This document shows, one piece after another, positions 8,529-50,781 of a stretch of DNA of 64,000 bases. The position numbers and the translations under genes were made by a program. The notes under the pieces are model-generated. The model was not told where the DNA came from. It saw nothing but the letters and a program-made list of their open reading frames with translations, and did no database searches. Every line of letters begins with the position of its first letter. Position 1 is the stretch's first letter. The DNA comes from Pseudolabrys sp. (lineage in GTDB: Bacteria > Pseudomonadota > Alphaproteobacteria > Rhizobiales > Xanthobacteraceae), in NCBI GenBank assembly GCA_030655215.1, contig JAURVZ010000086.1:1-64000 (forward strand), given 5' to 3'.

Positions 8529-8668
8529 TGCGCTTCTCCAGAGCCGCGATATGAATGGGGCGCGCAGTCGCTGAAAGTTCTTTTGAGCAGTCGATAGTAG
8601 GCTCGCCGCGACCACTGCAGGAGCTTACCTTCGTCTCTTGAGCGACGGATGGACGGTTTCCGTCGGCA

Positions 8669-11167
8669 GTGAAAATAGTTGCATCCGTGGCGGTTCTGCT
8701 GGTATCGGGTGCGACAATTTGGCGGTCTCCTCACGGCCTTTCAGCCGTTCCTGCCGCGTGTCCAGATCAGGGTAATCATTTGAGCGTCAGACCCATCTCA
8801 GGCTTCGATGACAGGGTTGAGATCATCGTTCAGGTTGTGGCAACTAATCTCGCGGCCCTTCTTTACGCTGTGGTTGTTCTTCAGCTTCTTGGGCTGCCGT
8901 CCAGCGTCTACAAGCTCCTGATCTTTTCATCCATTCTCATCGTCCTGCCGGTTTGTTCGGCCGCGATCATTCGGGCCGTGCGGCGTGAACCTCGCGATGC
9001 GAGCGAGTTCACGGATGTGGCGATCATGGCGGGCGTCGCCGTTTCTGCCTGCTTGCTCGCTGCCATATCGGTCGTGGTCTGGCTGTTCAGAATCCCGGTC
9101 CCTGTATCAAACCTGATGATCCGGTCAGGCTTGGCGGTCGTTATCTGCGCGCATCTGGGATTTCTTGCAGCAGGTTGGTTCGCCGGTGCATCGACCCGGC
9201 ACCGGCTGACCTTGAGCATGACGCGTGGCTTGACGTTAGATGGCAGGGCGTCCGCATCGCTCGGATTCGTTCTGATCGTCTCGGTGGGAATGCTGCTGGC
9301 GTTTTACATCGGGATCGGAAATCCATTTATAAATTTGAGTCTCAATCTAGTCCTCGGGCTAAGTCCCAAGCCAAGCTGGGTCATTATCATTCTGTCGGCG
9401 GTGTTGGCTATCGGAGTGATATATGTTTGTTTCCGCCTGATATCGGCGAACGCGGCGGATCGGTCGGAGCGAGGCTTCTGGACACCTGCACGGGTCGCGT
9501 TGGTTTCGGTTATCGTTGCCGTTCCATATTTTTACTTCGACTACAAATTCAACACCGATGTTCTGCACTTTCTGACCAACGCCGGACCAGCATCTCAGAT
9601 TATTCTTGCCGACACCGTTGCGATGGTGACGGCCTTCTCACAGTACGGGCCCGGTCCGATGGTTTTGACCTGGCTGACGTTTTTGGCCACGTCGCCGTCC
9701 TTTCACGCCGCGAACATCGTATCCCAGCTTCATTCGCTTGCATTCTACTGCGTCGTCCTGCTGTGCCTGTTTCGGATGACGCCTTATCGAACTGCCGCGA
9801 TGCTGCTTGGTTTTTTCGCGATTGGCGTTCTTATGGCGGGATGGGGCGGCGGAAACGGAAGTTTGAACAGCGTTCCTTCATCGATGGGCATGCGCTATTT
9901 GCCGAACGCTATGCTCGTTCTGGCAATCTCATATTTGCCGGCCAAACGCACTCTCTCGGCGTTTGTATTTCTTGCAATGGTTCTCGCCGGGCTCTGGAGC
10001 TTTGAAACCCTGGCAGGTTCGGTCGCTATCCTCGGAATCTTCATTCTCATTTCTTCAGTACGCGAAAGAGATGTGGTCGGCTTTTTCCGAAACTTGCTGT
10101 TCGGCATTCTCGGGCCCACCGTCGCTGCGGTGCTTCTGACCAGTGCAGCCACGCTGCTGTGGTCGGGACAGTTTCCGGATTATCTTGCCTATTTGCAGTT
10201 CGCACTCGTCTACAACATGACGTCCGAATTCTGGTCACTGGATGCGACCGGCACTTTTCTCGGATGGATACCGGTCGCGGCGGCCGTCATGGCCGTGCTG
10301 ACGCTGGCATGGTTGTCCGCAATCGGCGGCCCCAGCGATCGCGCTTCGCCGTTCGATATTTACGTTCTTATCTATCGCTTTGTCCCGATGGCTGCGCTGA
10401 CTGGATTCATGAGCAGCTATTTCGCCGGGCGGTCGGTCGACTTCACATTGATTATTTCTTTCCTGCCGTTCAGCGTCCTCGTCATCCCGACGATATTGGC
10501 GGTGTTCCACGAAGCGAAGCCGGACAGGGCGTCTTGGGGCAGGGCGCCATCCATCCAGCTTGCTGCCGTACTGGCGCTCGTGGTGTTTCTCGCATTGTCG
10601 TTTTCGTTTTCCGCGATGTATCGGAAGAATGCGCCTTATGCGACGGCGATATCGGAGTGCTTGTATAACTGGAACTGCACGCCGTTCGGTCTGGCTTCCG
10701 CAACAGCGCAAAGATATGCGCTGCGACCCATCCTGGATCAGGCAGCCAACCCAAATTTTTACGAGACAACGGGATTTACCAAGGATGCGCTCGGCCTGAT
10801 CGAACGCTATGCGTCCGATCGCCGTGAAATCCCGCTGTTCTTAGGCGTTCATCCGACATCCATTTGGAGCATTCACACCAACGCCGTCCTGGTTCTGGCA
10901 AGAAAAGGCCACCGCTGGCCAATTTCCTTCGTACTGAGCGACGAAATCAATCCCAAGCTGCGTCAAGCGATCGCCAGCGCGGACGTCAAGCTTCAGGAGG
11001 GCGAGGTGGTTTTCATCCGCACCGACGAGAGCAAGCTCGGGCTGCTGGAGGCGGCTATCGTGGCCAGGATCCGGTCAAGCGTCCGGCTATGCCCATTGCC
11101 GCCTTCGAGTGGTATGGTGACGGCCTATCGGGCGACGCTTTCGCAACAATGCGAACGGGGCACGTAG
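8669..11167 (+). CDS. Very large polytopic membrane protein (GT-C-like, unknown)
   Basis: An 832-residue protein with roughly fifteen or more hydrophobic segments up to about residue 650, then a soluble tail of about 180 residues. The general plan (many membrane segments, acidic loop residues such as FYFDYKFNTDVLHF, C-terminal periplasmic domain) fits GT-C type lipid-linked glycosyltransferases, but no diagnostic motif was found. It is followed after 9 bases by a second protein of similar design (11177). The start is uncertain: the GTG at 8669 lacks a ribosome site, while the in-frame TTG at 8780 has AGGG 7 bases upstream and removes 37 residues. Its place in the locus suggests polysaccharide assembly or modification. 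Confidence 0.55.
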   Translation: MKIVASVAVLLVSGATIWRSPHGLSAVPAACPDQGNHLSVRPISGFDDRVEIIVQVVATNLAALLYAVVVLQLLGLPSSVYKLLIFSSILIVLPVCSAAIIRAVRREPRDASEFTDVAIMAGVAVSACLLAAISVVVWLFRIPVPVSNLMIRSGLAVVICAHLGFLAAGWFAGASTRHRLTLSMTRGLTLDGRASASLGFVLIVSVGMLLAFYIGIGNPFINLSLNLVLGLSPKPSWVIIILSAVLAIGVIYVCFRLISANAADRSERGFWTPARVALVSVIVAVPYFYFDYKFNTDVLHFLTNAGPASQIILADTVAMVTAFSQYGPGPMVLTWLTFLATSPSFHAANIVSQLHSLAFYCVVLLCLFRMTPYRTAAMLLGFFAIGVLMAGWGGGNGSLNSVPSSMGMRYLPNAMLVLAISYLPAKRTLSAFVFLAMVLAGLWSFETLAGSVAILGIFILISSVRERDVVGFFRNLLFGILGPTVAAVLLTSAATLLWSGQFPDYLAYLQFALVYNMTSEFWSLDATGTFLGWIPVAAAVMAVLTLAWLSAIGGPSDRASPFDIYVLIYRFVPMAALTGFMSSYFAGRSVDFTLIISFLPFSVLVIPTILAVFHEAKPDRASWGRAPSIQLAAVLALVVFLALSFSFSAMYRKNAPYATAISECLYNWNCTPFGLASATAQRYALRPILDQAANPNFYETTGFTKDALGLIERYASDRREIPLFLGVHPTSIWSIHTNAVLVLARKGHRWPISFVLSDEINPKLRQAIASADVKLQEGEVVFIRTDESKLGLLEAAIVARIRSSVRLCPLPPSSGMVTAYRATLSQQCERGT

Positions 11168-39217: not shown

Positions 39218-41029
39218 CTACCCACTCATCTCTTCGCGCATCATCTCCAGCTCAAGCCACTGCTCTTCCGCCGCCGCCAGCTTGCGCTGCGTTTCGCCGA
39301 GATCATTGGTGATCTTGTCAAACGCCGTGCGGTCGCGCTGGAACAGCTTCGGATCGCCGAGTTTGGTCTGCAAATCGGTGACCTTGGCCTGCAACGTCGC
39401 CATCGTCTTCGGCAGTGTCTCAAGCGCATGCTTGTGCTTGAACGACATCTTCTGCTTCGGCGCCGGCGTAATCGTTGCGCTCAAAGCCTTTGGTGCTTCC
39501 TTCTTCGACTCCGAAGCCGGCTGCGCGCGGCGCAGATCTTCGCCGCGCTGGATGAGCATGTCGGAATAGCCGCCGGCATATTCGGTCCAGCGGCCATCGC
39601 CTTCCGGCACGATCACGCCCGACACGAGGCGATCGAGGAAGTCGCGGTCATGGCTGATGAGAATGACAGTGCCCGGATAATCGCCAATGACGTCTTCGAG
39701 AACGTCGAGCGTTTCCATGTCGAGATCGTTGGTCGGCTCATCCAGCACCAGCAGGTTCGACGGCTTGGCCAAAGCCTGCGCCAGCATCAAACGGCCGCGC
39801 TCCCCACCGGACAATTTGCCAAGCGGCGTGCGCGCCTGCTCAGGTCCGAACAAAAAGTCGCGCATATAGCCGATGACATGCTTCGGCTGGCCGTTGACCA
39901 TCACCGTGTCGCCGCCACCGCCGGTCAGCGCATCGGCCACGGTCGTGTTCGGGTTGAGACTGTCGCGATGCTGGTTTAGCGTCGCCACTTCCAGCGTCGA
40001 GCCGAGCTTCACCGTGCCGCTGTCCGGATCGTCGGCGCCGATCAGCATGTTGATCAGCGTCGTCTTGCCGCTGCCATTTGGGCCGACAATGCCGATGCGG
40101 TCGCCGCGCGCGATGCGGATCGAGAAGTCGTTGACGATCGAGCGGTCGCCATAGGTCTTGTTAATGTTCTTGGCTTCGATCACCAGCGCGCCCGAGGCCG
40201 AGGCGGCGCCCGCGGTGATGGTGGCGGAGCCGGCGGCGCCGCGATAGGTGCGCCGCGCTTCGCGCAAGGCCTGCAAGCCGCCGACGCGGCGCATGTTGCG
40301 CTTGCGCCGTCCGCTGACGCCGTAGCGCAGCCAGTGCTCTTCCATCACGATCTTGCGGTCGAGCTTGTGCTGGGCGACTTCTTCTTCCTGCAGGATGGTG
40401 TCGCGCCATTCCTCGAAATGGGCGAAGCCGCGCTCGAGGCGCTTGGTCGTGCCGCGGTCGAGCCAGACGGTCGAGCGCGACAGGTTGGAAAGGAAGCGCC
40501 GGTCATGGCTGATCAGCACCAGCGCGGTGCGGCGCGAATCGAGATCCTTCTCCAGCCATTCGATGGTGGTGAGATCGAGATGGTTGGTCGGCTCGTCGAG
40601 CAGCAGGATATCGGGGTTGGCGGCGAGCGCACGGGCCAGTGAGGCGCGGCGCGCTTCACCGCCGGACAGATGCGACGGGTCTTCAAGGCCGGTGAGGCCG
40701 AGTTCCTCGACCAGATTGGCGGCGATGTAATGATCGTCTTCCGATATCAGGCCGCTTTCGACGTAGCTGAGCGTCGTGTCGTAGCCGGAGAAATCCGGCT
40801 CCTGCGCCAGGTAGCGCACGACGGCGCCGGGCTGCACGAAAATGGTGCCGGAATCGGGTTCGACCAGCTTGGCGGCGATCTTCAGCAGCGTCGATTTGCC
40901 GGAGCCGTTGCGGCCGACCAGCGAGACGCGTTCGCCGGTCGAGACCGAGAGATCGGCGCCGGACAGGAGCGGCGTACCGCCGAAGGTCAGCTTGATGCCG
41001 GAGAGTTGCAATAAGGGAGGAGGGGCCAT
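39218..41029 (-). CDS. ABC-F family ATPase (Uup-like)
   Basis: A 603-residue protein with two ABC domains and no membrane segments. Walker A sites are GRNGSGKST and GPNGSGKTT, both signatures LSGGE, and Walker B sites ILLLDEPTNHLD and LLVLDEPTNDLD. A charged linker joins the domains. A C-terminal coiled-coil (last about 80 residues, ETLPKTMATLQAKVTDLQ) marks the Uup subtype. ABC-F proteins act on the ribosome or on DNA rather than in transport. AGGGA lies about 7 bases before the ATG at 41029; the upstream neighbour ends at 41040. Confidence 0.92.
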   Translation of the reverse strand: MAPPPLLQLSGIKLTFGGTPLLSGADLSVSTGERVSLVGRNGSGKSTLLKIAAKLVEPDSGTIFVQPGAVVRYLAQEPDFSGYDTTLSYVESGLISEDDHYIAANLVEELGLTGLEDPSHLSGGEARRASLARALAANPDILLLDEPTNHLDLTTIEWLEKDLDSRRTALVLISHDRRFLSNLSRSTVWLDRGTTKRLERGFAHFEEWRDTILQEEEVAQHKLDRKIVMEEHWLRYGVSGRRKRNMRRVGGLQALREARRTYRGAAGSATITAGAASASGALVIEAKNINKTYGDRSIVNDFSIRIARGDRIGIVGPNGSGKTTLINMLIGADDPDSGTVKLGSTLEVATLNQHRDSLNPNTTVADALTGGGGDTVMVNGQPKHVIGYMRDFLFGPEQARTPLGKLSGGERGRLMLAQALAKPSNLLVLDEPTNDLDMETLDVLEDVIGDYPGTVILISHDRDFLDRLVSGVIVPEGDGRWTEYAGGYSDMLIQRGEDLRRAQPASESKKEAPKALSATITPAPKQKMSFKHKHALETLPKTMATLQAKVTDLQTKLGDPKLFQRDRTAFDKITNDLGETQRKLAAAEEQWLELEMMREEMSG

Positions 41030-41039
41030 TCCGCCGTCC

Positions 41040-42239
41040 CTACAGGGGGAATCCTCCGCCGTCAAAGTGCAGTGCAACAAGGCGCCGGTATACGGCTCCC
41101 AGGTGTTTTTCGGCGGTCACGCGCAGGGTTTCGCTGGCCGCGGCCTGTTTGTCGGCACGGTCGTCGGTAAAGGCGAAGGCGGGGGCCTTGGCGTCCCGCT
41201 GCGCGGCGGCGGTCATGCGGACCAGGTCGGGGGCGCTGGGGTGGACGCCGAAATGCGGCAGGATCCGGCTGGCCAGGGCGCCGGGCAGGTCGCGGTAATT
41301 GATCGCCATCCCGCCGTCTTTGAGGTGTGCGGCGGCGGCCTCGCAGATAACCCCGAGCACGCGGGCGCAATAATCGGGGTCGGCGTGGCCGGTGTGACAG
41401 GCAAGGCCGTAAAGCTCCGGCGGCGTGATCATCGGCACCATCTGCGCCCCCCTCTGCCGCATATGCGACACCAGCACCTCAACCGGATCGCGGTAGAGAA
41501 AGATCCACGGCGTGGCCGCAAAGGTTTGCCGGAGCAGCGGCAGCGCCAATGTGTGCCAGCAATCCAGTTTCAAAAAATATCGACGTTGAGAGCCGCTGCG
41601 CCGCCGGCCATAGGCGGCGATGATGGCGGGCAACAGATCGGCGGACGTCGGCATCACACGGATGAACTGGACAACGCTGTCGACCGGCGCCGCTTCGGAG
41701 ATGACGATGTTCTCCGGCAGCGCCGCCAGCATTTGCGCAACCAAGGTCGAGCCGCAGCGCGACATGTGCAGGATGAAGCCGTCCGGTGTCAGGCTTTCAT
41801 GGCGCCGTGCATCGGCGAGGAAGTCCGCAAGCGTCATGCGGTAGGTGAACAGGCGGTTGAACGGTCGGCGCATGACGCGGCGAATCGAATCTTCCAGGAA
41901 CGGCTCGGTCAGCGGCGCATCGCCGAACCAAGCCCAATCGATCATCGGATGGTTGCCGGTAGTCGAGACATGCATCGGCAGCCATTGCGGTGATGGCCAC
42001 ACAGTGCCGTCCGGCGGCCGTGGCATGAAGCGGCTGATGTTGGCCGGGTCTGGGCGGGCCGCCTGCAGCAGCGCTGTCTCGCTGAGATGCATGCCGAGCG
42101 ACGCGGCGCTGCTGATGAGTTGCGCGATAAACTCGTCCGCGTCCTCCATCGCATACAGGCGCGCCGCCAATGCGTCGTCGGCCATCACGCGGCTGCGAAA
42201 CAACGCCACATCGGAAATCTCGCAAAGGTTGTATTTCAC
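41040..42239 (-). CDS. Nif11-like domain fused to a sulfotransferase
   Basis: A 399-residue protein. Residues 8-62 (FRSRVMADDALAARLYAMED, then FIAQLISSAASLGMHLS) follow the Nif11 pattern F-x3-V-x2-D-x2-L-x2-L...A-x2-G-x4-L-x2-A, a domain best known as a RiPP leader. Residues about 155-340 are a sulfotransferase: HMSRCGSTLVAQML fits the 5'-phosphosulfate loop (158-171) and FLYRDPVEVLVSHMRQR the 3'-phosphate region. It would transfer sulfate from PAPS. GTG start with GGAG 5 bases upstream. It is divergent, by 27 bases, from the DUF6916-like gene. Its role next to a lasso-type cluster is unproven. Confidence 0.7.
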   Translation of the reverse strand: MKYNLCEISDVALFRSRVMADDALAARLYAMEDADEFIAQLISSAASLGMHLSETALLQAARPDPANISRFMPRPPDGTVWPSPQWLPMHVSTTGNHPMIDWAWFGDAPLTEPFLEDSIRRVMRRPFNRLFTYRMTLADFLADARRHESLTPDGFILHMSRCGSTLVAQMLAALPENIVISEAAPVDSVVQFIRVMPTSADLLPAIIAAYGRRRSGSQRRYFLKLDCWHTLALPLLRQTFAATPWIFLYRDPVEVLVSHMRQRGAQMVPMITPPELYGLACHTGHADPDYCARVLGVICEAAAAHLKDGGMAINYRDLPGALASRILPHFGVHPSAPDLVRMTAAAQRDAKAPAFAFTDDRADKQAAASETLRVTAEKHLGAVYRRLVALHFDGGGFPL

Positions 42240-42266
42240 ACCAACTCCGAAGTTTCAGTGGAGGCG

Positions 42267-42635
42267 ATGACAAGCCAATCTAAGATGATTTGGCAATTTA
42301 AGATGCACGAAGAACGCATCGGGATGACGCTCATGACAGGCAAGCTGCTTTCCTATGACGACTTCGCCGGCAAGACCGGCGAGGTTTTCTCCATCAGCGA
42401 TACCGACGTGCCGCAGATTCCGTTGACCCTGACCGAAACCGAACGGGTTAAAGCGCATCGCGGCCCCGCCGGTATGCGTGAGCCGTTCTCGCTGATCTTT
42501 GTCGCCAGGGATCCGCGCGTCCTGCCGCAGCGGATCTATCGTCTTGAGCACAATGATCTCGGCGAACTCGACATCTTTCTGGTGCCGATCGGCAAGACGG
42601 CCGATGGCGTCAGTTATCAAGCGATGTTCGCCTAG
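42267..42635 (+). CDS. DUF6916-like small protein
   Basis: A 122-residue protein. From residue 26, LLSYDDFAGKTGEVFSI, then VPQIPLTLTETERV, MREPFSLIFVARDPRVLPQ, YRLEHNDLGELDIFLVPIG and YQAMFA match small DUF6916-type proteins often encoded beside tail-collar (MdpB) proteins. Such a neighbourhood is exactly what is seen here. The start is uncertain: the ATG at 42267 has GGAGG only 2 bases away, and ATGs at 42303, 42324 or 42333 would fit the domain better. The end overlaps the convergent GNAT gene by 26 bases. Confidence 0.65.
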   Translation: MTSQSKMIWQFKMHEERIGMTLMTGKLLSYDDFAGKTGEVFSISDTDVPQIPLTLTETERVKAHRGPAGMREPFSLIFVARDPRVLPQRIYRLEHNDLGELDIFLVPIGKTADGVSYQAMFA

Positions 42636-43161
42636 ACCTCGGCATCCACTCCATTTCGAGATAGACGTCGTGGTCGGCGACATCGGTAAAGCCGAGCCGC
42701 TGATAGAAACGCAGGGCCGGATTGAGCTTCTCCACCATGATGTTGACGCCGCCGCCGCCGCCGCCGCCGCCGGCGGTGGCTTGCAGCGCGCGCAGGATGG
42801 CCGTGCCGAGGCCGCGGCCGCAATGTTCCGGCAGCAAGGCAATATCGACGATGTAAATCATCGTCTCACGCGGCTCGAGATAAAGCCGGCCGATGCCTGC
42901 GCCTTGATGCTCGATGACCTGGAAAACGCAGGCCGGGATCGAGGTGCGGTAATGATGCCGCTGTGCGTTGAACTGATGCGCAATAAAAGCCTGCTTCTGC
43001 GCGTCGCTCCAAGGCACCGACTCCAGCTCGTAGGCCCGCGTCGATGCGTAGACCTGCATCAGGAACGGAATGTCGGCATCGGTCTCCGGCCGCAGACGAT
43101 ACCCTTGAGACAGCAACGCCGCCGGCAGGGAGAAAACCGGCGGCGCGTGCAGCGCTGTCAT
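42610..43161 (-). CDS. GNAT-family N-acetyltransferase with polyglycine tract
   Basis: A 183-residue GNAT enzyme. LRPETDADIPFLMQVY is the first strand and helix, IYIVDIALLPEHCGRGLGTAIL carries the acetyl-CoA loop (motif A, CGRGLGT), and LNPALRFYQRLGF is motif B. Eight GCC repeats in the plus-strand sequence (42748-42771) encode eight consecutive glycines between motifs A and B. It follows three tail-collar genes (11-base gap) and probably belongs to their operon. The substrate is unknown. Confidence 0.85.
   Translation of the reverse strand: MTALHAPPVFSLPAALLSQGYRLRPETDADIPFLMQVYASTRAYELESVPWSDAQKQAFIAHQFNAQRHHYRTSIPACVFQVIEHQGAGIGRLYLEPRETMIYIVDIALLPEHCGRGLGTAILRALQATAGGGGGGGGVNIMVEKLNPALRFYQRLGFTDVADHDVYLEMEWMPRSRRTSLDN
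42748..42771. repeat. Eight-unit GCC microsatellite inside the GNAT gene
   Basis: Eight tandem GCC triplets (GGC on the coding strand) encode a run of eight glycines. Changes in copy number would alter loop length without shifting the frame. Confidence 0.9.
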
Positions 43162-43172
43162 AGCCGCCGCCG

Positions 43173-43709
43173 TTAATTGCGCGACGGAAACACGCCGAAC
43201 AGGCAGATGCAGAAATTCAGCGCCAGGTAAGGCTGCATATTGTCGTGCGGCAGCGAGCTACCGGCCGGTGTAATGGCGTTCGGCGAGAAGGGCGCATCGG
43301 CGGTCACCGGCGGTTTTTGATAACCAAGCGCCCCCTTGAGCGCCGACAAGTAACTTGTGTTGGTCGGCCCGACGGAACGGTTGGCGATATTACCCGGGTC
43401 GGCGGCGAAAATCTGATGTTGGTGCGCTGGCATTTCCTGCGTGCTCAGCGAGACCGAGGGCGCGCCCAGCACTTCGCCGAGGACCGTGGCGAGACCAGTG
43501 TTGCTATGGCCCCAGTGCATCGGAATCTGGCCCTGCAGGTTCGGCAGGTTGAATGTGGTCGTGCCGTTTCCGCCGTAATTGGTTCCGAGAATGCTGTAGA
43601 GCGGCGCGTTTTGCTGGATCAGCATTTGCTGGCCGTTGCAGAACGCCCAATCGCGCGGTGCGAAAGTGAAGCCGAAGGCCCGGATCTCGCCGACAAAAGG
43701 TTGCGACAT
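43173..43709 (-). CDS. Phage-tail-collar (MdpB-like) protein 3
   Basis: A 178-residue tail-collar domain protein. FVGEIRAFGFTFAPRDWAFCNGQQM, read in pieces, gives the opening, then LYSILGTNYGGNGTTTFNLP, the LQGQIPMHWG turn, a Ser/Thr/Gly-rich middle, and the ending CICLFGVFPSRN. These are the hallmarks of MdpB-type proteins, which share the collar domain with phage tails but are encoded outside prophages. It is the third of three paralogues in a row, all ending in G-x-FPSRN. No signal peptide is present. Function unknown; structural or surface roles are suggested for the family. Confidence 0.85.
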   Translation of the reverse strand: MSQPFVGEIRAFGFTFAPRDWAFCNGQQMLIQQNAPLYSILGTNYGGNGTTTFNLPNLQGQIPMHWGHSNTGLATVLGEVLGAPSVSLSTQEMPAHQHQIFAADPGNIANRSVGPTNTSYLSALKGALGYQKPPVTADAPFSPNAITPAGSSLPHDNMQPYLALNFCICLFGVFPSRN

Positions 43710-43721
43710 GGTTGGCTTCCT

Positions 43722-44270
43722 TTAGTTGCGCGACGGAAACTGGCCCTGAAGGGCGATGACGAATGAGATGCAGAGCGACGGCATCAGGTTGTTGTGCCCT
43801 TGGCTGCCGCCGGTGATCGAGCAGGCCTGCGTCGCCATCAGCTCCGGTACAACAGGTGGCTGACCGGTTTGCGTCGCCGCATAGAACAAGGGTGACGTCG
43901 TGCCGCCGACCGTGCCGGGCACGACATTGGTGCTGATACGCGCGTCGGTCGCCGCGGCTTGCGATGCGATGAGCAGATGCGTGTGCTGCGGCATGGTCGC
44001 CGACGTCAGCGTCACCTGCGGCGTGCCGCCAGCTTGTCCAAGCTGATAAGTCGATAGACCTTGCCCCGTGCCTTGATGCACCGGCAGCGCCGATTGCAGG
44101 TTCGGCAGCGCGAAGGTCTGGACACCATCGCCGCCATAGGTCGTGCCCAGCAAGGTAAACAGCGCCGTGTTCTGCGCGATGCTGAGATTTTGCCCGTTGC
44201 AGAAGGCAAAGCCCTTCGGCGCGAAGTTGCCGCCGAACATCATGATCTGTCCAAGAATTACATTCGTCAT
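43722..44270 (-). CDS. Phage-tail-collar (MdpB-like) protein 2
   Basis: A 182-residue paralogue of the flanking genes with MFGGNFAPKGFAFCNGQNL, LFTLLGTTYGGDGVQTFALP, LQSALPVHQG and the ending FVIALQGQFPSRN. The opening Asn-Gly-Gln after Cys (FCNGQ) is conserved in all three. The gene is separated from its neighbours by 12 and 34 bases, consistent with a single operon. Confidence 0.85.
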   Translation of the reverse strand: MTNVILGQIMMFGGNFAPKGFAFCNGQNLSIAQNTALFTLLGTTYGGDGVQTFALPNLQSALPVHQGTGQGLSTYQLGQAGGTPQVTLTSATMPQHTHLLIASQAAATDARISTNVVPGTVGGTTSPLFYAATQTGQPPVVPELMATQACSITGGSQGHNNLMPSLCISFVIALQGQFPSRN

Positions 44271-44304
44271 GGCGCGGGTCCTCCCGGGTTCACTCGGCTA
44301 GTGC

Positions 44305-44835
44305 CTAATTGCGCGAAGGGAAGATGCCGCGAAGCGCGATGCACCAGTTGATCGTCAGGTAGGGTTGCAGGTTGTTATGCCGCTGGGTGCTGCCGGCCGG
44401 CGCAATACAAGCCGGGTTCAGGATCACCGGCGGCACCGGCGTTGCATAGAGCGGGAGGGCGCCGCCGCTCGCCGAGGTCGCCAGCACCACGCCGGGATCG
44501 GCATTGCTTGACGTGCCGTTGGCCGATGCGCCGACGAAGCCGTGCGTGTGCGCCGGCAAGTTCGGCAGCAGCAGCGTCACCTGCTCCTCGCCGGCCTGCT
44601 GACCGATGACATAGGCGTTGCCCGATGGCGCGGTGCCGAAGTGCATCGGCACGCGGCTTTGCAAGTTCGGCAGAGCGAAGGTTGTGCTGCCGTTGCCGCC
44701 ATAATAGACGCCGAGCAGCGAGAACAAAGCGGCGTTCTGCTGAACCGGCAGGAGTTGTCCGTTGCAGAGGGCCCAGTTCTTCGGCGCGAAGCCGAAGCCG
44801 AAACATTGAAGCTGACCAATAAAGGGTTGCGCCAT
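44305..44835 (-). CDS. Phage-tail-collar (MdpB-like) protein 1
   Basis: A 176-residue first member of the trio: GQLQCFGFGFAPKNWALCNG, LFSLLGVYYGGNGSTTFALP, LQSRVPMHFG, and the ending CIALRGIFPSRN. A perfect 8-base dyad (44848-44868) lies in its leader and an AT-rich promoter-like patch lies at 44895-44935. It starts 100 bases after the end of the lasso-type cyclase gene on the same strand. Whether it is co-transcribed with that gene is open. Confidence 0.85.
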   Translation of the reverse strand: MAQPFIGQLQCFGFGFAPKNWALCNGQLLPVQQNAALFSLLGVYYGGNGSTTFALPNLQSRVPMHFGTAPSGNAYVIGQQAGEEQVTLLLPNLPAHTHGFVGASANGTSSNADPGVVLATSASGGALPLYATPVPPVILNPACIAPAGSTQRHNNLQPYLTINWCIALRGIFPSRN

Positions 44836-44847
44836 CGAAAGCCCCCG

Positions 44848-44868
44848 CTCATTCCGACCTGGAATGAG
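44848..44868 (-). promoter_or_regulatory. Perfect dyad upstream of the tail-collar operon
   Basis: CTCATTCC-GACCT-GGAATGAG, with eight paired bases and a five-base spacer, ends 13 bases before the first tail-collar ATG. It may be an operator or an mRNA hairpin controlling translation. Upstream lies an AT-rich stretch (TATATAATTTATAA, about 44903-44916) with a direct repeat CAACCTAA on both sides, a likely promoter. Confidence 0.45.
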
Positions 44869-44934
44869 TGTGGCAGAAGGCCGAAGGTCTTACAACCTAA
44901 AATTTATATAATTTATAAGATGCAACCTAAGAGT

Positions 44935-46785
44935 TTATCGCTCCGGCTCGATCGTCCTGCGCAGGAAGTGACCGGCGCTGATGCTGCGTAGCAGTTTCAA
45001 GCGGTAGGCGCGGACAACGTCGTCGCGTTCCCAGCCGGACTCCGGCCAGTTATCGGCCAGCGCTTGCAGCCGTCCGATATCGAGCAATCGCGCGGCCGGT
45101 GCGCAAGCGGCAAGCCGCTCGAGTTCGTGGACAACCTCGGCACGCGCCGCGGTCAGCCCGACATGCCAGTCGGCGGCCTGGAGGCCTTTGCGCCGCTCGT
45201 TAAGAACAAGCTCCGGCAGCCTGTCGGCTAGCGAGCGCCGGGCCAAAGCCCGCGGCACGCCGCCGCTGAGATACTGTTCGACCGGCACGCTCAGGCAATA
45301 GTCGACCAGCCTTTTGTCGGCAGTCGGATCGCGCAGGTCGATGCCCCAGCCGGCCAGCGCGGCCTTGTTGTAAGTGCCGATGTCACCACGTCCGATCGCC
45401 GTGCGCCGTCCGTCGAAGCTGTCGCGCCGCGGGCGGCGCGTCAGTGGCGCGCGCATGAACTGACGCAATATTCGCCACAGCCACGCCGGCGCAAACGGAC
45501 CGAAAGCGGCGGAAGCGGCGCCGCGCCAGTTCATTTCACCCTTGGCGACCAGTTGCGACGTTTCATGCCAGAGGGGCAGCAGGCGGCCGTGACGCAGCAA
45601 CTCCGGCAATAGCTGGAGCCCGCTATAGCTCATGCTCAAATTGCCCATCTGGCCGGTGAGCACGATGGTGATGTCGCGTGCCTGCGCGGCTTCGTTGATG
45701 GCGCTCGCCCAAACCCAGCTGCTCGGCGTGAGGATCGGCCGCTCGCAGAGGAAGACACTGCGGTCGAGCCCGGCCAAGGGCGAGAGATGGCCGCTGCGGA
45801 TCAGCACATGCTCGATGTTGCCGTACAGAGCGGCGGTCGCGGCGGCGAGCGGGCCTTCATCCGCTATGTATCTTGGTCGATGAGCCTCCGCTTCGTCCTG
45901 GCGCGGCACCGCCGTGAAAGCGACAACCTTGCCGCCGCGCGGCGCAAGCAACCGCGCCGCTGTTGCCGTGACTGCGCTGCTGTCGAGCCCGGCGCTGAGA
46001 TGTGCGCCAACGACGCCGTCAACGCCGCGCAATCGCGATTGCGTGGCCTGCTCGAGATGAAAGCGCAGCCCGTCGACGTAGTCGGCCGTGCTCCGCCGCG
46101 TTGGCTCCGGCCGGCGCGGCTGCCAATAGCAGCGGCTCGAAACGCCATCGCGCGTCGCCGTGACAACATGGGCCGGCCGCACGCGTTCGATGCCGGCGAA
46201 ATAACTGCGCGACGTCATGTCCGGTATCGCCGCGATGAAAGACGCAACCATGTCTTCGTCCGGCGCCCGCGGAATTTCATTGAGGGCGTGTAAGCCCTTC
46301 GGCATCGACGCGAAGGCGAAGAAACCGCGGCCGCGATGATAATGCAAAGGCACATGACCGCGGAAATCGCGCGCCAGGGTCAGTGTTTGCGCCTGCGCAT
46401 CCCACAGCGCGAAGGCGAAATCGCCAACGACGCGGTCGAGTGCGCCTTCGCCCCATCGCTCAAGACAGGCCAGCAGAATGGCGGCGTCGCAAAGGGACAC
46501 TGCCTCGGCTTGTGTCATGGACAACGCCGCGATCAGTTCGTCACGATTGTCGATGCGGACGTCGGCGACGAGTGTCAGGCGGCCGTCTTGGCTGTGCAGC
46601 GGCTGCCGGTCATGCGCGTCTTCCGGCAATGTCCGAAACAGGCAGCGGCCCATCGCCATCGCGCTGTCCGTCCATATCCGGCTGTCGTGCGGACCGTAGA
46701 TGTGTTGCGCCGCCAGCATATGCTGGCAATCGGCGCCGGGGTCAGGCTTGATATCGAAGCGCCATAGACCGGCAACCGCACTCAA
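44935..46785 (-). CDS. Asparagine-synthetase-like lasso cyclase (protein C)
   Basis: A 616-residue asparagine-synthetase homologue. The N-terminal glutaminase-like domain starts MSAVAGLW, so the nucleophile Cys2 of true AsnB is absent. The ATP-binding loop SAGLDSS (264-270) is intact. This combination is typical of lasso-peptide cyclases (McjC type), which adenylate the side chain of an Asp or Glu and let the N-terminus of the core close the ring. The TTG start has GGAGG 10 bases upstream and lies 21 bases after the predicted precursor stop, so the two are one operon. The two AsnB proteins of the polysaccharide locus keep Cys2 and are different. Confidence 0.85.
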   Translation of the reverse strand: MSAVAGLWRFDIKPDPGADCQHMLAAQHIYGPHDSRIWTDSAMAMGRCLFRTLPEDAHDRQPLHSQDGRLTLVADVRIDNRDELIAALSMTQAEAVSLCDAAILLACLERWGEGALDRVVGDFAFALWDAQAQTLTLARDFRGHVPLHYHRGRGFFAFASMPKGLHALNEIPRAPDEDMVASFIAAIPDMTSRSYFAGIERVRPAHVVTATRDGVSSRCYWQPRRPEPTRRSTADYVDGLRFHLEQATQSRLRGVDGVVGAHLSAGLDSSAVTATAARLLAPRGGKVVAFTAVPRQDEAEAHRPRYIADEGPLAAATAALYGNIEHVLIRSGHLSPLAGLDRSVFLCERPILTPSSWVWASAINEAAQARDITIVLTGQMGNLSMSYSGLQLLPELLRHGRLLPLWHETSQLVAKGEMNWRGAASAAFGPFAPAWLWRILRQFMRAPLTRRPRRDSFDGRRTAIGRGDIGTYNKAALAGWGIDLRDPTADKRLVDYCLSVPVEQYLSGGVPRALARRSLADRLPELVLNERRKGLQAADWHVGLTAARAEVVHELERLAACAPAARLLDIGRLQALADNWPESGWERDDVVRAYRLKLLRSISAGHFLRRTIEPER

Positions 46786-46806
46786 CTGCGCCAGGCCTCC
46801 GAGACA

Positions 46807-46998
46807 TCAGGAGATGTAGTAGACGACACCGTCACTGGGTTGCGTGCCGCTAATAATGTTGGCGTTCGCCCGCGCCAGGCTCCCGACAATGACCTTTGGC
46901 GATTTCCACGCTTTGCGTGCGGCGGGCGGAAAAGCTTGCCCGTCCGCGGTCGACGCTGCTGCTGTGCGATGATGCGATGTCTTGCCCGCGTCGGACAT
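46807..46998 (-). CDS. Predicted lasso-type RiPP precursor peptide
   Basis: A 63-residue peptide directly upstream of the cyclase. Residues 29-41 (KAWKSPKVIVGSL, W31-x2-P34-x-V36) match the leader motif (Y/W)-x2-P-x-(L/V) recognised by B1 proteins. The C-terminal part ISGTQPSDGVVYYIS has one acidic residue, D56, so a ring could start at I48, I49 or S50 (9, 8 or 7 members). The usual Thr at the second-last leader position is not evident; A44 occupies the place (P+10) expected from paeninodin-like precursors. The peptide ends in Ser63, the residue type phosphorylated by lasso HprK-like kinases, and carries Tyr60-Tyr61. A strong promoter precedes it. Confidence 0.72.
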   Translation of the reverse strand: MSDAGKTSHHRTAAASTADGQAFPPAARKAWKSPKVIVGSLARANANIISGTQPSDGVVYYIS

Positions 46999-47028
46999 AG
47001 GCGCCCCAATCCCCAAACCAAAGCCTGA

Positions 47029-47049
47029 CAGCCGACTCGTAAGCGGCTG
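47029..47049 (-). promoter_or_regulatory. Hairpin in the precursor 5' leader
   Basis: CAGCCG (47029-47034) pairs with CGGCTG (47044-47049) across nine bases. It lies between the predicted promoter and the precursor ATG at 46998 and could stabilise the short abundant message. Confidence 0.4.
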
Positions 47050-47061
47050 CAGGAGCGTATA

Positions 47062-47090
47062 ATAATAGGATACCAACAGTTTCTTGGCAA
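47062..47090 (-). promoter_or_regulatory. Sigma-70-like promoter for the precursor peptide
   Basis: On the minus strand TTGCCA (47090-47085) and TATTAT (47067-47062) are separated by exactly 17 bases. Each matches the consensus at five of six positions. The expected transcript would begin near 47055 and have a leader of about 57 bases before the ATG at 46998. Confidence 0.7.
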
Positions 47091-47139
47091 TCCCAGGCTG
47101 TATCTAGAACCGGTGTGATTTCCGCAGGTTACAGGCGCG

Positions 47140-47934
47140 ATGGTAGCTGGCCCCAATGAAATTCTGGCCTTCACAATCGGCACGCGCAGCGTGGGCGATA
47201 ACTTGCGCCGCGCCATCGCTGCCGGCGCGGTGACCGAACAGGCCGATGGCAGCCTCGCCTTGCCGGTGCACGGCCCGGCCGCGTCGACATTCCTAATGGT
47301 GCGCAACAGCGAGGCGTTGGGTTGCGGCTTTCTCAACTCGTTTCTGTTCAAGCATGTTTACGCCGAGGCCGCGGTGCCGCAGGGCTGCGCGCCTTGCTAC
47401 AAGATCAAGGCGCTGCCGCGCAGCTTGCGCGAACTGGTGGCGATGTACGAAGTCGCCAAAAACATTCCCTGTCTTTCCAAATGGGGCATCGATCTCGGCA
47501 ATCCGCATAGCCAGGATATCTATGCCGGTTATGTCTACGTCACAGGCCTGGAGGGAGCGCGCGCTCTTTACCCGGTGCTGCGCAAGGCGATGACCGGACA
47601 TCCCAAGATCGGCGCCGATGTGCCACTGCTCATCAAGCGCGGCTGCTCCAATTACGAAGCCAAGCTGGGGCCGTCCGACCAATACACGTTCGCGCCCGAA
47701 CTGCGCGCCATCGAGGCAGCGCTGAAAGCACGCTTCAAGGACCGCGAGCCTGAAGATGAGAGCGTCGCCACAATGTTGTACGGCAAATGGGTGCCGCTCG
47801 CTTTTCAGATCGGCGACGATACCTATCTCGACTTCACGAATGGCCGGCGGCTTTATCCGAAATCGGTCAGCTACGATCCGGACGGCGCTCAGACGAAGCA
47901 GCCGATCTCGACAAAGCCCTTCGTCACCGGATAG
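47140..47934 (+). CDS. Unknown five-cysteine protein inside the lasso cluster
   Basis: A 264-residue soluble protein I do not recognise. Five cysteines stand out: C62 (LGCGF), C83 and C86 (GCAPCYK), C111 (IPCLSK) and C169 (KRGCSNYE). C83-x2-C86 suggests a metal or iron-sulfur site. Other striking stretches are KIKALPRSLRELVAMYEV, LLIKRGCSNYEAKLGPSDQY and WVPLAFQIGDDTYLDF. It is divergent from the precursor gene and convergent with B2, whose end it overlaps by 46 bases. That tight placement between precursor and B genes suggests a part in the same system, possibly modification, but the function is unknown. Confidence 0.6.
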   Translation: MVAGPNEILAFTIGTRSVGDNLRRAIAAGAVTEQADGSLALPVHGPAASTFLMVRNSEALGCGFLNSFLFKHVYAEAAVPQGCAPCYKIKALPRSLRELVAMYEVAKNIPCLSKWGIDLGNPHSQDIYAGYVYVTGLEGARALYPVLRKAMTGHPKIGADVPLLIKRGCSNYEAKLGPSDQYTFAPELRAIEAALKARFKDREPEDESVATMLYGKWVPLAFQIGDDTYLDFTNGRRLYPKSVSYDPDGAQTKQPISTKPFVTG

Positions 47935-48377
47935 CCGGTCACCTCGACCCCCGCCGCATCCAGCCAGGCATGCGCCTCATAGGGCGTGTTCTGGCCCAAA
48001 CCGTCTCGTGCTTTGCCGCCGCCGAAATGCAGGACGCTGGCAATGCCGCGCCGCTTCAGCATCAGGCGCGCTGCCATGGCTTGCGGCAGGCACACCGCGC
48101 GGAACGGCACATAGCGGGCGGCGCGCGTCACCGCCCAGCCGATGTCAGTTGCCGCTGCCGCCTGCTCATGTGAAACGCGCGCGCGCGCTTCAACCGCGCG
48201 ACTATCGGCCGGCGACATGAAGGCGCCAAATCGTTTCGCCAAATTGGGGAACGAGATGAAGATCAAAGCGAGGCGGGCCAGCAGCAGATAAGCAACGGCC
48301 TCGACCACCAGAGCACGGCGGCGGCCGTCGACCTGAGCGAACCTACGCAGCGGGTGGCGGATCGATCGCAATCGCAC
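47889..48377 (-). CDS. Lasso-peptide leader protease (protein B2)
   Basis: A 162-residue transglutaminase-like protease of the lasso B2 type. FRAVCLPQAMAARLMLKRRG contains the catalytic Cys96 in the conserved C-L-x-Q/R-A context, and EAHAWL the catalytic His136. LHFGGGK and the G-x-V-x-G stretch near 143-148 are also typical. It removes the leader peptide before ring closure. GTG start inside the end of the PqqD-like gene (35-base overlap), so the two are translationally linked. Basic N-terminus followed by one hydrophobic helix. Confidence 0.85.
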   Translation of the reverse strand: MRLRSIRHPLRRFAQVDGRRRALVVEAVAYLLLARLALIFISFPNLAKRFGAFMSPADSRAVEARARVSHEQAAAATDIGWAVTRAARYVPFRAVCLPQAMAARLMLKRRGIASVLHFGGGKARDGLGQNTPYEAHAWLDAAGVEVTGYPVTKGFVEIGCFV

Positions 48378-48618
48378 CTTGTTTCACCAGTTCGTTGCAG
48401 AAGCTTTCGACCTCGGCGCGGCAGACCTCGGGCGTGACCTCATATTCCTGTTGCAGCTGTGCGCAGATTGCGTCGATGTCATTGTCGGTTTCAAGCAGGT
48501 CCCAAATTCGGGCGCCGACTTCGCTCAAGCCGATATAATTGCCTCTCTCGGCGCTCATCATCACCAGCTCGTCGCCGACCTTGGCAGAGAGCCAATCGCC
48601 TTTCTTTTTGATCTTCAT
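48343..48618 (-). CDS. PqqD-like RiPP recognition protein (lasso protein B1)
   Basis: A 91-residue PqqD-family RiPP recognition element. Three strands (WLSAKVGDELVMMSAERGNYIGL) are followed by the helix GARIWDLLET and the DIDAICAQLQQEYEV segment of PqqD-like proteins. Such proteins bind the leader peptide and hand it to the protease. It lies 10 bases after the sulfotransferase and overlaps B2. Confidence 0.88.
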   Translation of the reverse strand: MKIKKKGDWLSAKVGDELVMMSAERGNYIGLSEVGARIWDLLETDNDIDAICAQLQQEYEVTPEVCRAEVESFCNELVKQGAIAIDPPPAA

Positions 48619-48628
48619 GCTGCCTCCC

Positions 48629-49543
48629 TCATCCCGATATGGCGCGTTTGCCGGATGTCACCGGCACATAGCCAAGGCGGCGCATCATCGGCGCATGCTC
48701 GTTTTCGATGCGCGCCACTTGTTCAGGTGTCAGTTCCTCGCGCCAGGCGCCGGCCTCGCCGCGGCGAAAGAAGTTGCCGTCGCGTTGCGCCCGTGGCGCT
48801 TCGCGAAATCCCTTGGCGCGCTCCTGGCGCTGCAGTTCGGTGAAATCGGCAAGCCGCACGGCGCGTTTAATGGCGTCCAGGCTGACATCGTATCGGGCAA
48901 AGGCGAGGGCGCGGGCCAGCGACATCGCCGTATCCGCCTTCATGTCCTCATAGCGAACGAGATGAATGGGAATGTCGCGCTGCTCCAGCCAGCTTTCGAT
49001 ATAGCCGCTCCAGCCCGGCAGGATCTGGCGGAACTGGTTGAATATCCGGTCGCGCCGGCCGCCCGACATCTCGGCATTGTTGCTGTTCATGAACGTAATG
49101 GCGTCATCGAGACTGCACGACTGGTGATTGGCCCAGGACGAGGCCACGTCGCGCGGGTCGCGCACGATCAGGATGGCGCCGTCGGCGCCCAGCCGGCCGG
49201 CGAGCAGCGGCTCGCCCGTCACTGTCCGCGTATAGGCGTCGTGCGTCTTGATGAAGTGCACCGGCGGCGCTTCGGTGTCGATGTTGTCTTCGTCGTCGAG
49301 GTTTCCCTGCGCCAGTTCGGCGTGGACCAGCGGCCGCAGGCTATCGATCTCGTCATCGGTCAGCAGGCCGGAGTCGAGCAGTGTGACGTGATCGAACGGT
49401 TCGCGCGAACTGGCGATGTGGCCGCGCCGTGGCAGTTCGTTGATGTCGGCCGGCGTGTCGCTATCGGACGCCAGATTGGCGAGCAACATGCGGAACCAGG
49501 TGTTGCCGGATTTAGGATAAGAGGCGAGCCAGATGGTGCGCAT
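48629..49543 (-). CDS. Sulfotransferase of the lasso cluster
   Basis: A 304-residue cytosolic sulfotransferase. WLASYPKSGNTWFRMLL (residues 4-20) holds the 5'-phosphosulfate loop and LIVRDPRDVASSWANH the 3'-phosphate site; RYEDMKAD and the late G-x2-G-x2-K-like GKRAI end follow. It uses PAPS as donor. The ATG at 49543 shares a base with the kinase stop (TGATG), so kinase and sulfotransferase are coupled. The likely target is the lasso precursor or product, for example Tyr60/Tyr61 of the peptide, but this is inference. Confidence 0.88.
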   Translation of the reverse strand: MRTIWLASYPKSGNTWFRMLLANLASDSDTPADINELPRRGHIASSREPFDHVTLLDSGLLTDDEIDSLRPLVHAELAQGNLDDEDNIDTEAPPVHFIKTHDAYTRTVTGEPLLAGRLGADGAILIVRDPRDVASSWANHQSCSLDDAITFMNSNNAEMSGGRRDRIFNQFRQILPGWSGYIESWLEQRDIPIHLVRYEDMKADTAMSLARALAFARYDVSLDAIKRAVRLADFTELQRQERAKGFREAPRAQRDGNFFRRGEAGAWREELTPEQVARIENEHAPMMRRLGYVPVTSGKRAISG

Positions 49544-50517
49544 CACGCCGCCTTTTCCATCAGGCCGATGCCGCGCCAATGTTGCTCAAGCCAGCCGATG
49601 ACATTGGGCATGTCGGCGAAATCGAGCCGGCGCGTCAGGCTGTAGATGCCGGCGGCATTGGCGATGGTGGTTGCCGCGTGGAAATAGCCGGCCCGCTGGC
49701 CCAATCGGTGCACCAGCATCGGCCGATAGGCATTGCGGCGCAGCAGCAGCGCCGCCTCGACCGCATTCGGCTGTTCGATGCCGGGCTCGAGCGGCGGCCG
49801 CGCGTCGAACAGGGCATAGATTGCGCCGAGCGGTACGGCTTCGTCGCGCGTGCCTTCGGGCTCGACGTAGAATTTCTCCAACTGACGGCGCACGCGCGCG
49901 CCACGGCTGGCGCCGAGGTCGAGGCGGTTGATCGCCTGCGTCCATAATTTCAGCTGGCGGCCGTCGGGATGGACTGTGGGTACGCCTTGCGCGTCGATGG
50001 AGATGGCGCAGATGTCATCGGTCAGCAGCGGATAGCCGCGCTGCGACAGTGCGGCGGCAAGGCTCGACTTGCCGGCTCCGGACGGTCCGCAAAACAGGAT
50101 GGCCCGGCCGCCGACCTGAACGGCGCTGGCATGCAGCACGATCTGTTTCCGCTGATGCAGCAGGATGCCGAACACGGTGCCAAGGATGAAGACCGGGATA
50201 TCGGCGGCATCGCTGCCGGCTTCGGCTTCGTATGTGATCTCGCGGCCGTCGTGCAGCAGGAAGCGGGCAATCCCAGGAATGCGCAGCAGGAAGTCCTTGC
50301 CGGCGAGCTGCCACGTTGGCCCAGAGGCGCTCGCGCCGTCCAGTGCTTCCGGCACAGTGCCGGCGCGGACAAAGGCGTCAGGCGTTGCCTTGCCGGCTTC
50401 CAGGCCGTTCAGTCCGGGTAAGGCCAGATCGCTGGCGACGGCCAAGCCGGAGACGCAATAAAGATGCACTTTGCTCTCCGGGCCGGGTCCGAAGCCAATG
50501 TTCCGCAAGGCGTGCAT
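49543..50517 (-). CDS. HprK-like kinase of the lasso cluster
   Basis: A 324-residue protein whose second half is an HPr-kinase-like domain: LHASAV, Walker A GPSGAGKSS (144-152) and LLTDDICAI (Walker B-like, acidic pair 167-168). The first 110 residues are the N-terminal domain typical of the RiPP-associated branch. Relatives such as PadeK of the paeninodin cluster phosphorylate the C-terminal Ser of lasso precursors, and the precursor at 46807 ends in Ser. The start is not certain; the ATG at 50517 is the first good one, and shorter starts near residue 17 are possible. It heads the kinase-sulfotransferase-B1-B2 operon. Confidence 0.85.
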   Translation of the reverse strand: MHALRNIGFGPGPESKVHLYCVSGLAVASDLALPGLNGLEAGKATPDAFVRAGTVPEALDGASASGPTWQLAGKDFLLRIPGIARFLLHDGREITYEAEAGSDAADIPVFILGTVFGILLHQRKQIVLHASAVQVGGRAILFCGPSGAGKSSLAAALSQRGYPLLTDDICAISIDAQGVPTVHPDGRQLKLWTQAINRLDLGASRGARVRRQLEKFYVEPEGTRDEAVPLGAIYALFDARPPLEPGIEQPNAVEAALLLRRNAYRPMLVHRLGQRAGYFHAATTIANAAGIYSLTRRLDFADMPNVIGWLEQHWRGIGLMEKAA

Positions 50518-50556
50518 ATAGCATATTGGACAACCAAAAGCATCCAAAGCTGGGAG

Positions 50557-50781
50557 CTACTTCTTGACGATCCGGAAGGTGAGCAGGCCGTCGGCCTTGT
50601 CCTGACCTTCGAGCGTGTCGCCGGTCTGGCGCAGCAGGTTCGGGATATCGAGCGCCGCTAAGGGATCGGTGCATTCGGCGATGATGCGGTCGCCGGATTT
50701 CAGGCTGGAGAGCATCTTCTTCACCCGCAGGGCCGGGAGGGGGCATTTCAAGCCCCTCAGATTCATGGTCTTTTCGTCCAA
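50557..50781 (-). CDS. TusA/SirA-like sulfur carrier
   Basis: A 74-residue TusA-family protein. MNLRGLKCPLPALRVKKML contains the CPxP motif with the persulfide-carrying Cys, followed by DRIIAECTDPLAALDIPNL. It probably carries sulfur for cofactor or tRNA work, and its position beside moeA/mobAB/fdhD suggests formate dehydrogenase maturation (FdhD is a sulfur carrier too). The TTG at 50781 was chosen for its AGGAG 7 bases upstream; the ATG at 50766 is an alternative. Confidence 0.85.
   Translation of the reverse strand: MDEKTMNLRGLKCPLPALRVKKMLSSLKSGDRIIAECTDPLAALDIPNLLRQTGDTLEGQDKADGLLTFRIVKK

Follow-up and report, generated by a model that had tools for sequence, protein, structure and literature searches.

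We analysed a window of 64,000 nucleotides (positions 1 to 64,000 of contig JAURVZ010000086.1, assembly GCA_030655215.1) from Pseudolabrys sp., an alphaproteobacterium of the Xanthobacteraceae, which carries a lasso-type peptide cluster on its minus strand. The cluster encodes a precursor (A), an asparagine-synthetase-like macrolactam synthetase or cyclase (C), a PqqD-like protein predicted to bind the leader (B1), a transglutaminase-like leader protease (B2), an HprK-like kinase (K) and a sulfotransferase (ST). It belongs to an island in which the lasso genes are inherited together with a cassette of phage-tail Collar domain genes, and in which precursor and cyclase have most likely been exchanged while the other genes stayed. 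This co-inherited cassette with its exchangeable precursor-cyclase pair is the part of interest; the combination of kinase and sulfotransferase is common and has already been noted. That the whole is a kinase-bearing lasso cluster, with a phosphorylated and sulfated peptide and with the collar set as its co-inherited partners, is an account we favour with moderate confidence.

Read on the minus strand from 50517 to 44935, the order of genes is K, ST, B1, B2, A and C, with a plus-strand gene (hyp) standing between B2 and A; K and ST overlap by one base, B1 and B2 overlap, and B2 overlaps hyp tail to tail. Downstream of C and on the same strand lie three Collar proteins (COL1 to COL3) and a GNAT acetyltransferase, followed by a DUF6916 gene on the plus strand and a second sulfotransferase gene (ST2). 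L018, a locus from a Pseudolabrys metagenome-assembled genome (MAG), has the order K-ST-B1-B2-A-C with 59-75% identity for K, ST, B1, B2 and C, so that the clustering is not due to chance, and its collar set is arranged likewise, without hyp. A similar block occupies the same site in two congeners (G070, locus L097; G110, locus L096), between an ABC-F gene and tusA with molybdopterin-type genes behind. In G034, G142 and G091 the site is empty and the ABC-F gene, tusA and a MoeA-like gene are adjacent, the ABC-F gene of G091 being truncated where its contig stops; the flanks are far from each other in G127. The flanks were scanned in part and some of their gene names are our presumption. Among seven sampled genomes of the genus, B2 and the Collar genes are both present in three and both absent in four. 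Filled and empty sites, together with this joint presence and absence, establish that lasso and collar genes are gained or lost as one unit of about 9.5 kb. A prophage or tailocin was considered and rejected, since no other phage-like gene was recognised in the island and the empty site in congeners is clean. A previous sequence-only reading had placed a cluster of six genes, with overlaps among them, at 44935-50517; all six are there on the minus strand and the K/ST and B1/B2 overlaps are confirmed, but the block continues to about 41040, so that by ending at 44935 that reading missed the larger and more surprising unit with its collar part.

The association between lasso and collar genes extends beyond the genus. 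An evenly drawn sample of the class comprised 385 genomes. B2 occurs in 33 of them, at 40 loci, and Collar matches occur in 57, of which the 55 that pass the cut-off were used. Seven B2 loci are no farther than 15 kb from a Collar cluster, when 0.19 were expected; the Poisson test behind this comparison treats loci as independent, and the window's own genome is included (six of the seven remain without it). The linked genomes (G000, G160, G191, G199, G312, G419 and G503) represent six GTDB families and display differing gene orders. Co-occurrence at the genome level is raised as well, with both genes in 16 genomes (Fisher p 7e-7, relatedness ignored). Other loci were fetched for lasso, collar or four-cysteine genes and hence only the class sample measures linkage free of that bias; of the 113 cyclases obtained in this way, 22 have collars nearby and 64 do not, and for 27 the end of the stretch is too close to say. 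On the cyclase tree the collar label needs at least 12 changes, with 14-22 in shuffles, and on a tree of 35 GNATs the lasso label needs 4, with 7-16 in 200 shuffles. The locus tables omit short duplicates (L001-L017, L112-L116) and near or true duplicates (L032, L037, L085, L111, L182). The literature searched yielded no paper that contains 'lasso peptide' as well as 'tail collar'.

We compared the window with L096: identity is 62% for K, 56% for ST, 58% for B1, 64% for B2, 53% for GNAT, 50% for ST2 and 47%, 62% and 61% for COL1, COL2 and COL3, but 35% for C. Against L019 the values are 61% for C and 34% for K, and against L106 they are 53% for C, 32% for K and 30% for B2. Quick trees agree with these figures: on the cyclase tree the window and L018 fall among clusters that have no ST in the stretch covered, with L096 and L097 elsewhere, and on the K, ST and B2 trees L018, L096 and L097 are the rows nearest to the window. 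The precursors differ in the same pattern as the cyclases. Since cyclase and precursors diverge within a frame of conserved tailoring enzymes and collars, it is most likely that precursor and cyclase were exchanged and the rest of the frame was kept. Two pairs of MAGs point to misbinned contigs or recent transfer: L087 and L092, assigned by name to different phyla, have nearly identical cyclases, and L025 and L032, named for different genera, have identical small neighbouring open reading frames (ORFs) and differing precursors.

Profile searches support the lasso core set that had been proposed from the sequence. B2 matches lasso_biosyn_B2 (NF033537) with 81.4 bits (cut-off 33) and Transglut_core3 with 81.9 bits, and its Cys and HAWLD region align with BsfB2 of the Bradymonas sediminis bsf cluster; in its own genome, which is 80% complete, a search for the B2 family returned this gene alone. 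B1 matches Pfam PqqD (PF05402) with 76.4 bits (cut-off 23.4) and aligns with BsfB1. C starts with SAVAGLWRF after the start codon and hence has no Cys2; it matches Pfam Asn_synthase with 98 bits, and its best NCBIfam match, below the cut-off, is the lasso cyclase. The K core, P-loop included, aligns to BsfK, a tested lasso-precursor kinase, and this HprK-like P-loop core lies beside lasso genes and a candidate substrate ending in Ser, which supports the idea that K is of the precursor-phosphorylating kind. As far as family assignment can tell, the locus is a lasso-type cluster with such a kinase.

The precursor itself gave no match in protein family scans and was assessed by comparison with its relatives. 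Its leader bears the motif W-K-S-P-K-V (W-KSP-K-V) and its C-terminal end is GTQPSDGVVYYIS. A WxxPx[VLI] leader and a C-terminal Ser are shared by related precursors, and precursors of the same build occur in L018 (WAPPRV), L075 (WVAPRV), L072 (WETPVV; from the environmental strain Sphingomonas asaccharolytica NBRC 15499), L096 (WQTPRF) and L097 (WHTPRF), which bears out the conservation that the sequence-only reading had set as a check. Of 49 W-type precursors ending in Ser, 42 fit Ala or Thr at -2 combined with Asp or Glu at 7-9, compared with 15.9 on average, and never more than 24, when the tails were shuffled 500 times; the fit is 45 of 61 when C-terminal Ser is not preselected. The commonest residues at W+13 are Ala (16/49) and Thr (11/49). 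Among candidate precursors of 27 ST-bearing loci, 33 of 40 end in Ser; since the finder keeps some false ORFs, the misses may not be precursors. Control ORFs with an F/H..P motif end in Ser in 10 of 94 cases, a count free of the start, distance and length rules, and in 2 of the only 9 that pass those rules. The window core is predicted to be IISGTQPSDGVVYYIS, preceded by Ala(-2) and Asn(-1), with a nine-residue ring I1-D9 and a C-terminal Ser16; the other reading has Ile(-2) and a seven-residue ring. With this predicted cleavage site, W(-17), P(-14), V(-12) and D9 fit the pattern [Y/W]xxPx[LV] and an Asp or Glu at 7-9, and the leader spacing equals that of Tyr, Pro and Leu in the portion of PMC10368454 available. 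The hydroxyl residues of the core are S3, T5, S8, Y13, Y14 and S16.

The sequence-only reading had also considered a product both phosphorylated and sulfated to be unusual and proposed genome mining for the co-occurrence of the six genes; the K-ST pair turned out to be common. Across the loci fetched, 37 of 40 ST genes have K immediately upstream in the same orientation, with 23-163 bases between profile matches, the exceptions being one gene each in L165, L144 and L088; matches over 150 bits were counted, and one pair in L165 scores as a miss because its K is truncated where the stretch ends. Around the 113 cyclases compared, ST is within 10 kb of 39, K is also near 38 of these, and K is near 100 of all 113. 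The pair was found in Alphaproteobacteria, Acidobacteria, Chloroflexi, Rhodothermales and a Pseudomonas. As gene content it is already known: kinases and sulfotransferases in lasso clusters are reported in PMC4289311 and PMC8498205, and the portions available do not plainly state that they share one cluster. No report of a sulfated lasso peptide, or of a lasso product carrying both phosphate and sulfate, was found in the literature searched, as far as its accessible text goes, and the accessible part of a 2026 review (PMC13352647) yielded no mention of a sulfotransferase. Several loci show variants of the pair. In L165 (G466:C3:1-19500) several lasso clusters follow one another, of which three contain a K-ST pair, and three candidate precursors there have a C-terminal Ser; L028, from Pseudomonas, combines K and ST with a pair of similar cyclases, separated by about 5 kb, and with four candidates ending in Ser; in L161 (G415:C6) the two candidates of a K-ST lasso cluster end in STP and PTV instead of Ser, and the K match is in two pieces. 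Besides, a table in PMC10040529 on halotolerance-linked gene clusters of Pontixanthobacter gives, in the part seen, a lasso B2, a nucleotidyltransferase, two sulfotransferases, an aspartyl hydroxylase, PqqD and an asparagine synthase at neighbouring numbers.

ST matches Sulfotransfer_1 with 79.2 bits (cut-off 22), and motifs for binding 3'-phosphoadenosine 5'-phosphosulfate (PAPS) were seen by eye (Table 1; their roles in PAPS sulfotransferases are our assumption). Its best PDB matches are amine and cytosolic sulfotransferases, and by its sequence ST is an intact-looking PAPS sulfotransferase. ST2 is modelled with a sulfotransferase fold (pLDDT, a model confidence score, 77), the nearest solved folds being tyrosylprotein sulfotransferases (E from 8e-5, TM score 0.36-0.53). 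Its 60 N-terminal residues, predicted to be helical, weakly resemble Nif11 leaders (E 0.05-0.07 for the window, L051 and L149, below cut-offs; three matches from six N-terminal pieces searched against NCBIfam and five against Pfam).

From these elements we propose the following route. B1 would bind the WxxPxV leader, and K would phosphorylate a Ser on the linear precursor, most likely the C-terminal Ser16, with Ser3 as the other candidate. BsfK phosphorylates Ser3 of the linear precursor aided by B1, B2 cleavage being shown there too (PMC10368454), a C-terminal Ser is the target of ThcoK and SyanK (PMC10368454, PMC8498205), and RREs (precursor recognition elements) of paeninodins prefer Trp leaders (PMC13381572), in each case according to the sections available. 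ST would sulfate a Ser, Thr or Tyr hydroxyl of the same peptide, B2 would then cleave after Asn(-1), C would close the I1-D9 ring around the tail, and a transporter encoded outside the island would export the product. The collar trio, the GNAT, the DUF6916 protein and ST2 may function jointly with the peptide, in all likelihood outside the cell. The product is probably phosphorylated and perhaps sulfated too, judging from the genes present. A Tyr-only sulfate acceptor was rejected, as the L018 and L075 cores have no Tyr.

A number of observations weigh against this account. K reaches 47.9 bits with HprK_rel_A (TIGR04352), far under the cut-off of 200, and its match to Hpr_kinase_C is weak (31.2 bits, cut-off 33.3); C scores 309 bits with lass_lactam_cya (NF033535), whose cut-off is 525, and B1 scores 68.6 bits with the narrower lasso_PqqD_Bac, whose cut-off is 80. 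No ABC exporter lies within the island; ABC exporter-like genes were found near the collar-linked loci L025, L046, L051, L151, L152 and L153, and for the window, L096 and L097 the ABC gene in this set proves to be an ABC-F gene. The usual Thr(-2) is replaced by Ala under the nine-residue ring, no Ala(-2) lasso leader appeared by title among the literature matches listed, and an I(-2)A change abolished leader removal in BsfA (PMC10368454); Thr(-2) does not define lasso leaders, and Ile and Val exceptions are on record (same paper, part available). For sulfation, the Tyr-free cores of the ST loci L018 and L075 leave the choice of acceptor wide, and C-terminal Ser is no marker of ST, because 28 of 60 candidates from 51 ST-less loci also have it. 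The only match for an adenosine 5'-phosphosulfate (APS) kinase in the genome, as complete as stated above, is not clear (21.4 bits, cut-off 21.1); in two congeners, partial matches reach about 60 bits. Finally, in 9 of the 16 genomes with both genes no B2 is within 15 kb of a collar, and collar cassettes often have no lasso genes in the stretch fetched.

A rival explanation is that the collar cassette is a passenger, inserted at the same hot spots as lasso clusters but sharing no function with them. Lasso and collar genes are both patchy, and cassettes lacking lasso genes are common, many of them having a GNAT gene and some DUF6916 (GNAT is absent from L103, L105, L121, L128, L138, L139, L141, L142, L144 and some others). 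A shared site alone, however, sits poorly with a linkage that recurs in six families with differing gene orders, with the non-random position of lasso-linked GNATs on their tree, and with the joint presence or absence of B2 and collars in all seven genomes of the genus; we consider the passenger explanation rather unlikely, though deserving of weight.

Elsewhere in the window, positions 4501-31494 hold a long locus that we take to be of the exopolysaccharide or O-antigen type; two of its proteins are asparagine-synthetase-like and retain the MCGI start. In G070, of which about 40 kb was fetched on that side, none of the exopolysaccharide-type genes tested turned up next to the island, and the contig of G110 ends too early on that side to tell. 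A link between island and locus was therefore rejected, and their nearness looks accidental, judging from one genome.

It is also conceivable that ST leaves the lasso peptide alone, and that ST or ST2 sulfates a collar protein or a surface glycan while the peptide is phosphorylated only. ST2 and the collars share the island, the exopolysaccharide-type locus lies at about 4.5-31.5 kb, and some ST-locus cores have no Tyr. The place of ST right after K in 37 of 40 cases argues for a role on the peptide, and the same arrangement is seen in loci of other phyla (L045, L048, L050, L061, L074 and L082) whose fetched stretches, of up to 22 kb, showed no collar; the G070 island has none of the tested exopolysaccharide genes beside it. 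We regard a substrate other than the peptide as unlikely. Somewhat more doubtful still is that K and ST compete or alternate on hydroxyls, giving a product with phosphate or sulfate and never both in one molecule: a C-terminal Ser is present in most of the candidate precursors from ST loci, and by eye no second hydroxyl position is common to all, but the six hydroxyl residues of the window core offer enough separate acceptors. A linear phosphorylated RiPP (ribosomally synthesized and post-translationally modified peptide), with the cyclase employed otherwise, is very improbable, for although an HprK-like kinase and a discrete RRE make linear polyphosphorylated peptides elsewhere (PMC13381572) and C is 216 bits under the NCBIfam cut-off, those clusters have, in the part of the paper available, another peptidase and no cyclase, whereas here C and B2 are kept and most related precursors place an Asp or Glu for a ring of 7-9 residues.

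The gene hyp, between the two halves of the cluster, has no significant relative in Pfam, PHROGs or PDB. The sequence-only reading had found the split around it odd; hyp is no stray gene, because its homologues adjoin lasso genes elsewhere, and a chance gene between the halves was rejected on the same ground. Such neighbours are seen in L075, L117 and L118. The 385 class genomes hold, besides hyp itself, strong homologues in G188 and G527, both of which adjoin lasso genes, and a fragment in G208 that overlaps a B2 frame; a match in G361 is a TPR protein, taken as chance. No homologue was found in L018, L096 or L097. Cysteines C62, C83, C86 and C169 are invariant in four aligned sequences, which suggests a metal site; a structure model from two sequences reached a pLDDT of 44.8. 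The features of the island are collected in Table 1.

Table 1. Genes of the lasso-collar island, with positions in the window
Feature	Positions	Strand	Basis
K, HprK-like kinase	49543..50517	-	Walker A GPSGAGKSS, LLTDD; HAS ahead of P-loop
ST, PAPS-type sulfotransferase	48629..49543	-	Pfam Sulfotransfer_1; motifs PKSGNTW, IKTH, RDPRDVASS, FFRRGEAGAW
B1, PqqD-like predicted leader-binding protein (RRE)	48343..48618	-	Pfam PqqD match
B2, transglutaminase-like leader protease	47889..48377	-	NF033537, Transglut_core3
hyp, 264 aa, no known domain, four Cys	47140..47934	+	Homologues adjoin lasso genes
A, lasso precursor, 63 aa	46807..46998	-	Comparison with L018, L075, L096, L097 and others
C, asparagine-synthetase-like macrolactam synthetase without Cys2	44935..46785	-	NF033535, Pfam Asn_synthase
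COL1, phage-tail Collar domain protein	44305..44835	-	Pfam PF07484, 83 bits; PHROGs tail
COL2, Collar domain protein	43722..44270	-	PHROGs tail match
COL3, Collar domain protein	43173..43709	-	PHROGs tail match
GNAT acetyltransferase of collar cassette	42610..43161	-	Pfam Acetyltransf_7 / _1
DUF6916 protein of collar cassette	42264..42635	+	PF21880, 95 bits (cut-off 27)
ST2, second sulfotransferase, four-helix N-terminal part and sulfotransferase domain	41040..42239	-	Sulfotransfer_3, 30.6 bits (cut-off 27)
Whole island	41040..50547		Between ABC-F gene (39218-41080) and tusA (50557-50766)

Two details of the collar cassettes may be added: the window GNAT contains a run of eight glycines, and in L133 two Collar domains and a GNAT share one open frame without a stop (8198-10048).

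Among known systems, as far as the sources available describe them, the paeninodin-type and SyanK/ThcoK clusters resemble the window in A, B1, B2, C, an HprK-like K and a C-terminal Ser as kinase target, and the Trp favoured by paeninodin RREs is also present in the window leader. The window differs from them in having no transporter D in the island, ST right behind K, Ala(-2), the four-Cys protein and the collar cassette. The bsf cluster (PMC10368454) has in common with it discrete B1 and B2, an alignable HprK-like K core and a penultimate leader residue other than Thr, but this residue is Ile in bsf and Ala in the window, Ser3 is phosphorylated in bsf, and no sulfotransferase is named for bsf in the text available. 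For lasso clusters of Gram-positive bacteria, genes for both kinds of enzyme, HPr kinases and sulfotransferases, have been reported (PMC4289311; Zhu et al. 2016, via PMC8498205), and unlike in the window no collar genes are mentioned for them in the portions available. The three Collar proteins match the PHROGs tail category, as phage tail Collar (PF07484) proteins do; unlike those of phages, they are encoded in a chromosomal island between housekeeping genes, beside GNAT and DUF6916 genes, with no other gene recognised there as phage-like.

Collar triplets without lasso genes often adjoin giant proteins, with ends that we take to be autotransporter-like in L125, L127, L129, L132, L134 and L146 (the last with one collar copy) and with starts that are presumably LEPR or DUF4347-like in L121, L124 and L126. 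By analogy with these surface-type neighbours, the collar cassette, and the lasso product with it, may belong to the cell surface, a reading that we offer as a lead. It would fit with paeninodins lying often near capsule loci in Bacilli, as noted in the available part of a 2026 paper that calls the role of paeninodins open (PMC13381572). As a more daring suggestion, which we hold to be improbable as it stands, phosphorylated and sulfated lasso peptides of Alphaproteobacteria could make up one half, the small molecule, of a surface system with two parts; its collar proteins would be an extracellular fibre or carrier, working elsewhere with giant autotransporter or LEPR-type proteins and here with an anionic lasso peptide, and precursor and cyclase would be swapped like a tip on a common shaft. 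The exchange of precursor and cyclase within a fixed frame would provide natural pairs to tell what is cassette-specific (C) from what is general (K, ST, B1, B2), and the repeated lasso-collar link, in hinting at the cell surface, may offer a clue to the role of kinase-bearing lasso peptides.

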